Below are positions 3,794 through 13,319 of a stretch of 36,509 nucleotides of DNA, one piece after another. The DNA lies in NCBI GenBank assembly GCA_013821605.1, contig JACDGP010000050.1, positions 1-36,509 on the forward strand, given 5' to 3'. The DNA comes from Herpetosiphonaceae bacterium (lineage in GTDB: Bacteria; Chloroflexota; Chloroflexia; Chloroflexales; Kallotenuaceae). The position numbers and the translations under genes are program-made. Every line of letters starts with the position of its first letter. Position 1 is the first letter of the stretch. The notes below the pieces were generated by a model. It saw only the letters and a list, made by a program, of their open reading frames with translations, was not told the DNA's origin and did no database searches.

Positions 3794-5866
3794 TTAGTCC
3801 CGAGTGTAGGTCGGGAGCACCGCTACCGGCACTGTAAAGTAGAAGGTCGAACCTGCCTGCACGACGCTTTCCACCCAGATCCTACCACCATGCGCTTCGA
3901 CCGCCAATTTACAGAAAGCGAGCCCGAGTCCGGTCCCACGTCGGTGACCGCTGGGAGCTTGGCCAAAAAGTTCAAAGATTTGGGAGCGATAAGCTTCGGG
4001 AATGCCGGAACCATGATCCTGCACTGCCACGACTACCCACTCGCCAGGGCTATGTGGAAAAGGCAAGGCCGCCGCTAGCTCGACGCGACTGCTGATCGTG
4101 ATCTCGCCGGCCTCATGACTGAACTTTAGGGCATTATCCATCAAGTTTTGCAGAATGCGCCGTACCAGTTCGACATCGATCAGAACCGGTGGCGTGTCAT
4201 CGAGTTGATTATTGAAGCTGATTTGCTGGTCATGCGCCACCCGCTCAAGCCGCTCGATGACGACGTCGACGATCGGCCCTAGCCCCGCTGCCTGCGGATT
4301 GAGTGTGACAGTCTGCGCTTCCAAACGTCGAATATCCAGCAGATCATTGACCATATCTAGCATCTGTTGGCAGCTGGCAGCAGCGATATGTAGAATACGG
4401 CCCTGCTCCTTGGTCAGCGGTCCAACCACCTGCTTTGTTAGCAGGTCCACAGAAATCATCAGATTAGTCAACGGCGCGCGCAGATCATGCACGATCATGC
4501 TTGAAGTATCGGCACGCAGCTTTTCTATCTGCCGTGCTGCGGTGACATCCTGTACCACCAGGAGCGCACCAACACTGCCACCCCCATCACCATGCGCTGA
4601 CATCACCGTCCAATGAACATGGAGCAGGACGGCCTCGGCCACTACGAATTCGCCCTCGATCTGTATATGACCACCGCTTATCACTGCATCAATCGCCTCG
4701 CAAATAGCCTGAGCTGTTGCTGAATCAACTCCTAGCAGCATGTGTTCATCGCACAGATCACTGACACTCAGACCAATGAGGCGTGAGGTCGTCACGCCCA
4801 GCAGCGTCCCGAACGCACTGTTCACCACACTCACGCGCTGGTCCTGGTCAACCATCAAGATGCCTTCACGCGTCGATGCTAAAATCGCCGCTTTGCGCTC
4901 TTCCGCCGACCGCACTTCCTCAAACAAATTTAAGTTCTCTATGACAGCACCGGCCATCTTGGCATACAAAACGGCCATCTCGCGCTCGGTGCGGGTAACG
5001 GTCGACTGTGCAAACCCCAGCCACAGCAAGCCTACAGTACGCTTCGTGCCGCGCATCGGCACCACAATCAAGCGCCGAATATGTGCCTCGAATGCGGCAG
5101 CGGGTAAGGACTCACGGCGCAGCTCTACATAATCTCCATCAATCACATCAATCAGACTTTGCACAGCGTTGCCAATAGTTCCCGGCAGTCCAAGCACATA
5201 GTTCGCTTGGATCTCGCCTTTGTCCACAATCAAGACACCGCCGCCCGTCGCCTCGGTTGTGCCGACCGCGCCCCCAACCGTCATGCGCATGACATGATCG
5301 CTGTTGAGCTGCGCAGTATTGACCGCCAGACTAAGTGCGTTCAAGGCGGTTAAGCGATCCACAGTTTGTTGCTGTTCGGCAGCCAATGCGATGTTGTTGA
5401 TCGCAATGGCCGTTTGGTTCGCCACAATTTCTAAAAGCTGGACCAAGTGCTGATCCAGCGGTTCAGTCCGTTCACTGACGTCGACCACGATCAAGCCCAT
5501 CACCTGACCCTGGCGGTCAAGAATGGTCAGGGCTACGGCCTCACCAAAAGCAGGGAGCGCGGCGTGGGTATCAAAATGGTGCGTCAAGACACCCAGCTTT
5601 CTGGCCGCAGCCAACTGGGTCATCACGGTGCTCAAGGATAGCGGTGCCCACGTCGAGCCAGGCGGAGGAACGAGCCACTGCTGTTCACGGTCAACCAAGG
5701 CCAGCAACACTCGCTCACAGTTCGTCAGCTTCATAATAGTACGCATGACGTTGGCTGCCAATCCAGACAAGCTATCACACGCCTGCAGTGCCGTGCCTAA
5801 GGCCACCAGCTCTGTGAGCTGTGCGTTGCGTTGACTAAGCGTCCTTAACTGGTCGTCCAGCGTCAC
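3794..5866 (-). CDS. Soluble GAF-GAF-PAS sensor histidine kinase
   Basis: 690 residues and no membrane segment, so a cytosolic sensor. The order is GAF (about 20-165), GAF (about 170-315), PAS (about 320-445), HisKA with the phospho-acceptor His460 in MIVHDLRAPLTNL, and HATPase_c with the N box NLMDNALKFS, G1 DHGSGIP (about 617) and G2 GTGLGLAF (645-652). Small ligands, light or redox could be sensed by the GAF/PAS part; the signal is unknown. No response regulator is adjacent. The start is uncertain: GTG at 5866 has only a weak ribosome site, and the frame stays open for about 28 more codons to a TAG without any ATG, GTG or TTG. The gene diverges from the NACHT-like gene across 155 bases. 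Confidence 0.9.
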   Translation of the reverse strand: MTLDDQLRTLSQRNAQLTELVALGTALQACDSLSGLAANVMRTIMKLTNCERVLLALVDREQQWLVPPPGSTWAPLSLSTVMTQLAAARKLGVLTHHFDTHAALPAFGEAVALTILDRQGQVMGLIVVDVSERTEPLDQHLVQLLEIVANQTAIAINNIALAAEQQQTVDRLTALNALSLAVNTAQLNSDHVMRMTVGGAVGTTEATGGGVLIVDKGEIQANYVLGLPGTIGNAVQSLIDVIDGDYVELRRESLPAAAFEAHIRRLIVVPMRGTKRTVGLLWLGFAQSTVTRTEREMAVLYAKMAGAVIENLNLFEEVRSAEERKAAILASTREGILMVDQDQRVSVVNSAFGTLLGVTTSRLIGLSVSDLCDEHMLLGVDSATAQAICEAIDAVISGGHIQIEGEFVVAEAVLLHVHWTVMSAHGDGGGSVGALLVVQDVTAARQIEKLRADTSSMIVHDLRAPLTNLMISVDLLTKQVVGPLTKEQGRILHIAAASCQQMLDMVNDLLDIRRLEAQTVTLNPQAAGLGPIVDVVIERLERVAHDQQISFNNQLDDTPPVLIDVELVRRILQNLMDNALKFSHEAGEITISSRVELAAALPFPHSPGEWVVVAVQDHGSGIPEAYRSQIFELFGQAPSGHRRGTGLGLAFCKLAVEAHGGRIWVESVVQAGSTFYFTVPVAVLPTYTRD

Positions 5867-5946
5867 ATCATTCTCGACCGGTATGTTGGAGGAGTCCCTG
5901 ACCTTGATTGGTTCATCAATGACGACGATGCGAGCGCGTTTCGCAT
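5863..5946 (-). other. Possible 27-codon upstream ORF overlapping the kinase start
   Basis: A minus-strand ATG at 5946 opens a 27-codon frame whose TGA (5863-5865) overlaps the GTG start of the kinase gene as GTGA. Such overlap can couple translation, and the kinase GTG has no strong ribosome site of its own. The small frame also lacks a clear ribosome site, and it lies over an in-frame open extension of the kinase, so either reading could be accidental. Confidence 0.2.
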
Positions 5947-6021
5947 CGAAATTAGGCTAAAATTATGGAATGTGCTGATCGTAGCAGATAAATGACTTTT
6001 TGACAATATTGTGGCGGTGGG

Positions 6022-6981
6022 GTGAATCATTTGCGCGACCTAACCATCGAGGAAGGTGGTCAGCTTTTAGCAGGCTTGCGAGCTGAAGTACTGGTGCCAC
6101 TGGGCGTGGTGGAAACAGCCGTGCGCCTCTATCTCCAAACGCTCGTGGACACGATGGGCGAACCAGATGAAGCTTGCCTGAACCTGCCGACTACTACGTA
6201 TGTCTCCGGCGCTCATCGCCTATGGATGCAGGCCGGCCGGCTGCCTTGTACCATAGCACAGCTGGGAGCTTTGGATGCTCACGCTCACGCAGTGAACCTG
6301 GGTTCCGACCTGCGGCAGTGGCTCGGTGAGTTGCCAACAACGCGTGAAGTGGCGCTCTGGTTTGGCTTGGGGACCGCCAGCGGGGAGCTAGAGACGGCGG
6401 AACGGAGCCATGAACTGCAGGGGATTTGGGAGCGTTTGCTCCTACCGCGTACCGTGGCTGAGGTGTTGCGCCACAGTCTGGCGGTCGTCCTGATCGATCC
6501 AGCCGGTCTAGCCACTGCGGCAGTTCTGCGCCGGCTTGCGAGGCGGTTGGCTCGGTTACAGCTTGATCCTGCCGTGGTTCAATTGGTTGAGCCGGAGCTA
6601 GCATGGCCGGGTCCCCTGTTACTGCCATTCTTCGTTGTGTTGCGCGACTTGGCTAATACGCTCGAAGCAGCACCACACGACGATATACCACTCCTCCAAT
6701 ATCTTGCTCGCCAGCTAGGGGCACAGCCGCATGATGCACTGAACGAGTTCCTTGAGTGGCGTTTAGCAGGAGACAGCGTCTTGCTGTTGCTCGAAAGCCT
6801 GGAGGATGTCGTGGATGCGCAACGGCGCGCGTGGGTGGTGCAGGCAGTGGTACATTTCCGCCGCCGCTGGCCCCAGGCGCGCGTCGTGCTTACCAGCCGA
6901 GATAGCGCACAACGTGAACGAGCACGGTTAGATTTTCATTTCACGATCATCCAGCCACCTAGCGCAGCGCAAGCACAATGA
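6022..6981 (+). CDS. NACHT-like protein with degenerate P-loop
   Basis: 319 residues, GTG start, the first start codon after an in-frame TGA at 6001. The C-terminal half follows the layout of a NACHT NTPase: a Walker A-like region (about 155-173) that keeps the hydrophobic strand and the helix LRRLARRLA but reads PAGLAT where PGxGKS/T is expected; FFVVLRDLANTL (about 203-213), matching the usual LRDLA segment; Walker B-like LLLLESLEDV (254-263), where LLLLDGLDEV is typical; and VVLTSRD (288-294), the sensor-like TSR. The protein stops just after this, without the winged-helix or repeat regions usual in NACHT proteins. The N-terminal 120 residues are helical and unrecognised. It probably cannot hydrolyse ATP. 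This is my own reading of the motifs, with no profile search. It diverges from a sensor kinase. Confidence 0.6.
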   Translation: MNHLRDLTIEEGGQLLAGLRAEVLVPLGVVETAVRLYLQTLVDTMGEPDEACLNLPTTTYVSGAHRLWMQAGRLPCTIAQLGALDAHAHAVNLGSDLRQWLGELPTTREVALWFGLGTASGELETAERSHELQGIWERLLLPRTVAEVLRHSLAVVLIDPAGLATAAVLRRLARRLARLQLDPAVVQLVEPELAWPGPLLLPFFVVLRDLANTLEAAPHDDIPLLQYLARQLGAQPHDALNEFLEWRLAGDSVLLLLESLEDVVDAQRRAWVVQAVVHFRRRWPQARVVLTSRDSAQRERARLDFHFTIIQPPSAAQAQ

Positions 6982-6993
6982 TGGGGAGAGTGG

Positions 6994-7506
6994 CTAAACG
7001 ACGCAATCATCGGGATCGCCACGCAGCTTGTCCAGTGCGTGGGGTAATACCGGCAGAATCACCGCGAGATTTTCGCGGACGGCTTTCGGGCTGCCGGGCA
7101 AGTTAATAATCAAGCTACGGCCCCGCGTCCCGGCCACCATCCGTGAGAGCATGCCAAACGGCGTGATAGCGAGGCTGGCAACCCGCATTGCTTCGGGTAT
7201 ACCTGGCACTTCACGCTCGATGACCTGACGCGTTGCTTCGGGCGTCACATCACGCGGTGCAAGCCCTGTCCCGCCGGTAGTCAAGATCAAGTCAGCGGTC
7301 GAGTCATCGGCCCACTGCGATAACGTAGCCGTAATAGCGGCTATTTCATCAGGCACAATGGCGGTGGTAATCAGCGTTGCGGGTAGTGCGGCCTCAACGA
7401 GGACCCATACCGCAGGTCCACTGCCATCAGGCCGCACACCGGCCGAACTGCGATCACTGATCGTCAAAATTGCTACACGGTAGGGCGGTTGTTGCTCATT
7501 CGGCAT
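6994..7506 (-). CDS. Molybdenum cofactor biosynthesis protein MogA/MoaB family
   Basis: About 170 residues of the MoCF_biosynth fold. VAILTISDRSSAG opens the domain, TTGGTGLAPRDVTPEA is the family signature for molybdopterin binding, and LPGSPKAV follows near the end. Proteins of this kind adenylylate molybdopterin before molybdate insertion (MogA), or are the MoaB paralogue; sequence alone does not separate them. The frame extends to an ATG at 7533, but the ATG at 7506 has AGGAG nine bases upstream and gives the usual N-terminus. It overlaps the end of the mevalonate-pathway gene by 11 bases on the same strand, pointing to coupled translation. No other molybdenum cofactor gene is in the window. 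Confidence 0.9.
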   Translation of the reverse strand: MPNEQQPPYRVAILTISDRSSAGVRPDGSGPAVWVLVEAALPATLITTAIVPDEIAAITATLSQWADDSTADLILTTGGTGLAPRDVTPEATRQVIEREVPGIPEAMRVASLAITPFGMLSRMVAGTRGRSLIINLPGSPKAVRENLAVILPVLPHALDKLRGDPDDCVV

Positions 7507-8494
7507 GGAGATATGCTCCTGGTCCCGGTCCATTAGTAATCGTGAATTGGACCTCTGGTAGGGCCTCTAGCCGTTGCGCGACTGCTGGCGCATCGGACAT
7601 CGCACATAATACATGTACATTGGCCCCTGCATCCATGGTCCAGTAGCTGAGGAAACCTTCCTTGCGCCAGTCATGGACCGCTTGCATGACCCGCAGTGTC
7701 CCCGGTCGCCAATAAAAGGTGGGCGGCTGCGCGGTCATCGCGACCACATGCAATGAAACGGCATCAGCCTCCGCGATCAGGCCCAGAGTAGCAAGCTCAT
7801 GTTCACGAATCGCCCTTAAACAGCCATTCACACGGGCCGGTACCTCTTGCAAGCGGACTTTGAAATAGGGACTCGTGACCGCCAAGCGGTGATTCTCGGC
7901 CGAGCCCACGCTTTTCGGTCCAGTGTCGACAATCGCGACGACATCGGCCAGCGCCCAATCGTTGGGCATCGCCACCGAGACTGCATAGGAGCCCGCGTCG
8001 GTTCCATCATTACGCCAATGGACGAAGCCGGGCGGAATCGAGCGACAGGCAGAGCCTGAACCCGACCGGCGAGTCAGAATCGATAGTTCATGTTCCCCAA
8101 GCTGTAGGCCGGCCGCGCCAGCCGCAGCCGTCGTTAGGGCCGCAAACGCTGAGGCAGAGGAGGCGATGCCAGCATCGGCCGGAAAGGTGTTAGCCGACTC
8201 AACGCGGGCCCATTCTTCAATACCCGCCCGCATCCGTACCCGATCGAGTTGCGCGACGACCCGTTCGTAGGCCTGCCCAGTAACCTCCTCCATCTCGCGG
8301 CCAAACCAGGCGATGCCTACTTCGTCGGCGGGCAGGCTTCCATCGAAGGCGACGGTCGTGGTGGTCGTGCAGTGATCGAGGTTCATCGAGACGGACTCAT
8401 TATAGGGCAGTGTTAAGGCCGAGTCTGCGACGCCCCAATACTTGACCACTGCGATGTTGGCGTGTGCCGTGGCCGTTGCGCGCTGATTTGCCAT
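7496..8494 (-). CDS. mvaD: Diphosphomevalonate (or phosphomevalonate) decarboxylase
   Basis: A GHMP-superfamily enzyme of 332 residues that decarboxylates a phosphorylated mevalonate with ATP on the way to isopentenyl (di)phosphate. Visible are HANIAVVKYWG (12-21), YNESVSM, the ATP loop ADAGIASSASAFAAL (107-121), SGSACRS with Arg151, and MDAGANV with the catalytic Asp288. The frame reaches an ATG at 8533, but the family N-terminus aligns with MANQRATATAHANI at 8494. Position 22, after KYWG, is Val, where canonical diphosphomevalonate decarboxylases often have Lys. In Roseiflexus a homologue acts on mevalonate 5-phosphate, paired with isopentenyl phosphate kinase, so the substrate here is open. 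It overlaps the mogA/moaB-like gene. Confidence 0.88.
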   Translation of the reverse strand: MANQRATATAHANIAVVKYWGVADSALTLPYNESVSMNLDHCTTTTTVAFDGSLPADEVGIAWFGREMEEVTGQAYERVVAQLDRVRMRAGIEEWARVESANTFPADAGIASSASAFAALTTAAAGAAGLQLGEHELSILTRRSGSGSACRSIPPGFVHWRNDGTDAGSYAVSVAMPNDWALADVVAIVDTGPKSVGSAENHRLAVTSPYFKVRLQEVPARVNGCLRAIREHELATLGLIAEADAVSLHVVAMTAQPPTFYWRPGTLRVMQAVHDWRKEGFLSYWTMDAGANVHVLCAMSDAPAVAQRLEALPEVQFTITNGPGPGAYLHAE

Positions 8495-8593
8495 GGAGTA
8501 GGTGATCCTTTCGTTGGCCCAATAGTACCGCATGCCTGACGTACGTATGCGGTGGGAGGTCGAAGGCTTGCGGGTGGTGCCGCGGTAGTGGAA

Positions 8594-11294: not shown

Positions 11295-13319
<2,025 letters not shown>

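Follow-up and report, generated by a model that had tools for sequence, protein, structure and literature searches.

How should a bacterial NACHT gene be read when it is shortened at both ends and has an altered nucleotide site, but still has an uninterrupted reading frame: as a disabled protein that is retained, or as what is left of a decaying gene? The question is raised by one gene in the window, i.e., the whole 36,509-nucleotide stretch of DNA that was analysed. The gene and its parts, all on the forward (+) strand, are as follows.

6022-6981, +: gene (P0001) for a NACHT-derived protein of 319 aa, assigned by homology, with a frameshift-free alignment from 6031 to 6957
6031-6441, +: remnant of the N-terminal domain, residues 4-140, about 33% identical to the intact relative L004
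6442-6978, +: NACHT nucleotide-binding domain (NBD), residues 141-319, with a predicted P-loop NTPase fold
6490-6522, +: degenerate P-loop LIDPAGLATAA, residues 157-167 (LLGDPGSGKTT in relatives)
6640-6654, +: LRDLA, the LR-x-(F/L)-A motif of the family, kept according to the alignment
6781-6810, +: altered Walker B motif LLLLESLEDV, residues 254-263 (ILLLDGLDEV in L034)
6892-6900, +: sensor-1-type TSR, kept according to the alignment

The reading frame opens with GTG and closes with TGA at 6979-6981. Since its GC content by codon position (0.747/0.447/0.600) resembles that of the neighbouring genes and its codon usage lies inside their range, 6022-6981 looks like genuine coding sequence with a strong coding signal, as the first-pass annotation had held on the letters alone. 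That annotation also placed the NACHT landmarks in their usual order, and LIDPAGLATAA, VLRDLA (residues 206-211), LLLLESLEDV and LTSR (residues 290-293) are all found in the sequence; the nearest intact relatives read VQLRRFA at the second of these positions and the same LTSR at the last. The statement that the frame stops directly after the TSR motif has to be corrected, as the stop lies 26 residues further, beyond the next strand (FTIIQP). In composition, the protein has the lowest total of Phe, Ile, Asn and Tyr (6.9%) among the window genes measured, and it contains no lysine at all. The latter adds little, as L004 is lysine-poor as well, with only about four lysines over the matching stretch (counted by eye).

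The origin of the gene is nearly certain: it is a derivative of a NACHT-FGE gene. Residues ~4-312 are homologous, with 39-40% identity overall and 42-45% in the NACHT part, to the N-terminal domain and the NACHT NBD of Chloroflexales NACHT-FGE proteins of ~950 aa; across L034, L035 and L036, identity in the NACHT part is 34-45%. The best matches (E = 2.8e-32 and 2.2e-33) are ~950-aa proteins (open frames of 992-993) in two genomes of the order, and E = 2.2e-33 was reached with the single sequence against an intact relative in another genome, which is above chance. Dozens of further proteins match more weakly. The relatives tested score above the Pfam NACHT cut-off (28-36 bits vs 26.7 for PF05729), and the proposed NACHT origin is thereby borne out through them. 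The protein itself has no match in Pfam, NCBIfam or PADLOC, in Pfam not even at E 5, so a NACHT profile search of the 319 residues stays below the gathering cut-off of PF05729; a sequence profile compared with the PDB gives mostly generic P-loop matches.

The intact relatives have both Walker motifs, ~45 additional N-terminal and ~575 additional C-terminal residues, and L004 and L005 carry an FGE-sulfatase domain at their C-terminus that the 319-aa protein lacks. Compared with them, the gene has thus lost sequence at both ends, and its C-terminal cut falls at the boundary of the NBD; the post-NBD region of STAND and NLR proteins (HD1, winged helix) is absent because the frame ends at that boundary. 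This agrees with the earlier suggestion that the protein is a piece of one that was once longer. The comparison is most direct with L034 (Chloroflexales bacterium ZM16-3), L035 (uncultured Oscillochloris) and L036 (Herpetosiphon llansteffanensis), which are colinear with the protein from the N-terminal domain to the end of the NBD and share its motif order; judged by these named matches, the window probably comes from the order Chloroflexales. Unlike it, they have GxPGSGKTT, LLDG(L/V)DE, the ~45 further N-terminal residues, the post-NBD region and a C-terminal FGE-sulfatase domain (PF03781). Within the N-terminal remnant, several in-frame indels separate the protein from L004.

Structure prediction points to the same domain. 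Given an alignment, AlphaFold models most of residues 141-310 at a pLDDT of about 80-95 and residues 48-123 at low confidence. The best structural match of this model is the NACHT domain of NLRP3 (Z 14.2, 2.9 A over 186 residues), followed by those of NOD2 (Z 14.0) and NLRC4, and its last residue lies opposite NLRP3 residue 379, the end of the NACHT NBD. When AlphaFold is given the single sequence alone, it does not reach a confident fold (pLDDT 42), so the alignment-based fold is partly inherited from the relatives. Thus, a match to P-loop NTPases is found, albeit an alignment-dependent one, and the model places the protein among the NACHT NBD folds.

What sets the protein apart is where it has changed. 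At the P-loop, the invariant Gly, Lys and Thr are lost: the stretch reads DPAGLATA and does not fit the Walker A pattern GxxxxGK[ST], and the protein has no lysine elsewhere. In Walker B, LLLLESLED does not fit hhhhD-G/A/S-x-D-E, as D is exchanged for E, G for S, D for E and E for D, whereas the strand residues are retained; the changes are conservative (LLLDGLDEV to LLLESLEDV) and keep the acidic character, yet every acid is exchanged. The earlier reading of both motifs as altered is confirmed by the intact relatives. To quantify this pattern, columns conserved in at least 85% of 25 intact relatives were taken, 28 of them in the NACHT region. The protein keeps 2 of the 12 columns of the nucleotide site (P-loop and Walker B), compared with 14 of the 16 other conserved columns (Fisher p 3.3e-4). 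At the other thresholds between 0.7 and 0.95, p lies between 3.7e-4 and 3.3e-3, and at 1.0, where few columns are left, p is 0.055. If the columns counted are those on which the three nearest relatives fully agree, 1/12 is kept in the site vs 45/72 elsewhere. Of the hydrophobic columns, 42 of 45 are kept. Aligning the P-loop by hand with a gap (DPAG-LAT against DPGSGKT) leaves the number of lost site columns equal. The protein is the sole one without GK[ST] among 95 distinct NACHT regions, drawn from the order and from related loci as a sample of best-scoring matches in which some genomes are sampled repeatedly. Judged by these residues, the 319-aa protein probably does not bind NTP normally and would be a pseudo-NTPase: a protein that folds as an NBD and appears unable to bind NTP, or to hydrolyse it, as such domains normally do.

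Selective loss with an intact frame does not resemble plain decay. A frameshift-aware alignment contains no frameshift at three penalties, even when frameshifts are cheap, and its nine indels all comprise whole codons; compensating frameshifts behind the altered P-loop, considered as its origin, do not occur at any of the three penalties. In a neutral simulation that takes the gene itself as its starting point, places no constraint on the frame at any stage and leaves indels out of account, 50% changed residues come with 7 stops on average, and each of 400 runs has acquired at least one stop; the gene has none. As neutral drift that erases the P-loop predicts several stops, ordinary decay seems an unlikely description. 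The remaining pseudogene marks point the same way, since neither stops, frameshifts nor a uniform loss of conserved residues are seen and only the nucleotide site is affected, although the truncations, taken by themselves, would also fit a pseudogene. The gene does stand on an accelerated branch (1.46 substitutions per site vs 0.25-0.38 in the sister lineage). On that branch a codon model rejects an omega of 1 (2dlnL 28), a result that is down-weighted because synonymous sites are saturated, with near random identity, and base composition differs between the lineages; with such saturation, the test reports mostly old and not present selection.

Broken NACHT genes of the order serve as controls. 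One in the same genome (L072:5010-7975, on contig C156 of G000) is split by a frameshift and has GTPGSGKT and LDGLDE intact. A truncated, NACHT-only ORF of 366 aa (L110:82-1179, on contig C139 of G043) keeps 11 of the 12 site columns, and a frame-broken NACHT-FGE gene (L111:56-2099, on contig C140 of G059) keeps all 12. In these genes the motifs are preserved, which is the opposite of the pattern in 6022-6981, where both Walker motifs are lost and the scaffold is retained. The gene thus looks more like one for a disabled, retained protein than like plain gene decay, in line with the initial impression that it was 'not simply decaying'. Some details of the controls may be added here. The C156 gene, a second NACHT-FGE gene of this genome, is divided over two frames of 391 and 714 aa, for which a recent frameshift, an assembly error and a programmed shift are alternatives. 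The L110 ORF, with an intact P-loop (GMPGGGKS), ends before the remainder of the protein, and L111 is broken by a deletion plus a change of frame, its first part being 61% identical to an intact gene of another genus.

The surroundings of the gene give the truncation its context. The features on either side are the following.

3794-5866, -: histidine kinase gene (GAF, PAS, HisKA, HATPase), divergent
6982-6993, no strand: 12-bp gap between the stop of the gene and the convergent MoCF gene; the junction at which the C-terminal ~575 aa are missing
6994-7533, -: MoCF gene (molybdopterin-binding, MoaB/MogA type), intact, 69-73% identical in five family genomes

In the five family genomes, MVD and MoCF are codirectional with the g11304 gene, either adjacent to it or with a kinase in between. 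In the window, the MVD-MoCF block (6994-8533) is inverted relative to g11304 (11304-13319). Because of this inversion and the distance of only 12 bp to the MoCF stop, the truncation seems to coincide with a rearrangement breakpoint at the 3' end of the gene. Within the block, the ORFs of MoCF and MVD have 38 bp in common. At the other side, the kinase is ~485 aa shorter at its N-terminus than homologues of ~1170 aa in four family genomes. No remnant of the C-terminal part is present downstream within the window, nor is there a long + strand open frame in the gap at 5867-6021; 'DNI' just before 6022 was considered as what is left, out of frame, of the missing 45 residues and rejected as too short. 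A loose FGE fragment on contig C245 was likewise discarded as the missing C-terminal half, as its nearest relatives belong to another subfamily (57-60% identity to L010 and L011, 39% to L034).

This junction is one ground for reading the ORF as a relic, i.e., as the non-functional leftover, still without stops, of a full-length NACHT-FGE gene that lost both of its ends to rearrangement. The MVD-MoCF block would have been inverted and the DNA between the block and the kinase lost, and the changes in the active site would have arisen earlier or through a few local events. Such a history is possible, with clearly less than an even chance. It fits the truncation at both ends of a gene known in one copy, the gene order, which departs from that of each of the five family genomes right at the 3' end, the adjoining kinase that also lacks its N-terminal part, the occurrence of broken NACHT genes in this genome and in related ones, and the accelerated branch. 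It accounts poorly for the loss of Walker motifs that the broken genes of the order keep, and for a frame without stops or frameshifts after divergence this deep. That a chimeric join cut a normal gene is, in contrast, extremely improbable. The genome is a draft of 259 contigs and the gene order at the junction is unique, but an assembly artefact would leave the residues of Walker A and B unchanged, and the matching C-terminal half is found on no contig, the C245 fragment being of the other subfamily.

The gene is known in a single copy. No orthologue of the short form occurs in 82 genomes of the order or in 400 sampled from the phylum, none is found in genome contigs, plasmids and viral contigs, and the five family genomes hold no close relative. 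A long form at the same locus is also absent from the genomes searched. Close paralogues are lacking as well, the best one in the same genome being 33% identical in the matched part; no fewer than four NACHT loci are present there besides this one. In the ZM16-3 genome, NACHT genes are clustered near the closest relative (L034:4004-9350 and L128), with at least four on contig C46. The first-pass annotation took orthologues with a full GKT motif and a longer C-terminus as a sign of local decay. Homologues of this kind do exist, albeit as distant relatives of 40-45% identity, and none is an orthologue; with neither a short nor a long form at the locus in the genomes searched, they do not prove local decay.

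A further possibility is that a full-length ancestor lost its nucleotide site while it was functional, e.g., as a pure sensor or partner, and was truncated recently, so that the ORF is a fresh fragment. This would explain both the selective motif loss in a preserved frame and the rearrangement junction, and requires no selection on the short form. It is nevertheless quite unlikely: among the 95 regions no full-length NACHT lacks GK[ST], and the cut falls at the NBD boundary, where a random breakpoint would rarely fall.

The reading proposed here, for which the chances are about even, is that the gene encodes a lineage-specific retained pseudo-NTPase, a NACHT-FGE derivative with a dismantled nucleotide site and an NBD scaffold under constraint. 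Of a NACHT-FGE STAND protein, the NACHT NBD and some of the N-terminal domain remain, with Walker A erased and the acids of Walker B exchanged, and the NBD scaffold would have stayed under constraint. Missing are both the FGE sensor and the post-NBD region with which NACHT proteins enclose their nucleotide, and without them the protein could neither sense nor switch. Its likeliest role would be that of a nucleotide-independent partner, decoy or damper of the other NACHT proteins in the cell, with contacts through the NBD or the N-terminal domain and with the other NACHT genes of the genome as possible partners.

Known systems offer partial parallels. In plants, NRG1C and NRCX are truncated or disabled 'modulator NLRs' that damp full-length relatives (PMC9851556). 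The likeness lies in being a cut-down or disabled NLR and is a functional analogy, with no claim of membership: the plant proteins have an NB-ARC and the 319-aa protein a NACHT domain, and NRG1C is without its N-terminal domain. By this analogy, the protein might be a bacterial 'modulator NACHT': NBD-only and blind to nucleotides, it would be kept by selection to damp or scaffold full-length NACHT sensors of the same cell, convergently with the plant modulators; this more specific idea is speculative and rather doubtful. Putative antigen-sensor STAND/NACHT proteins with C-terminal CLec or FGE domains, some of them diversified by retroelements (PMC10907252), share the general architecture of the gene's intact relatives, whereas the 319-aa protein has lost the FGE sensor. 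With anti-phage proteins of the bNACHT25 type (PMC12169576) it has the NACHT NBD in common; these carry an effector and C-terminal modules, unlike its partial N-terminal domain and NBD with a site that is not intact.

If the gene is not retained, it would still be a clear case of selective active-site loss as opposed to plain decay, and it would still illustrate the turnover of NACHT genes in Chloroflexales. If it is retained, it would be a bacterial NLR-type protein without a switch, kept as a scaffold or damper, and the regulation of NACHT proteins in multicellular bacteria would become testable.
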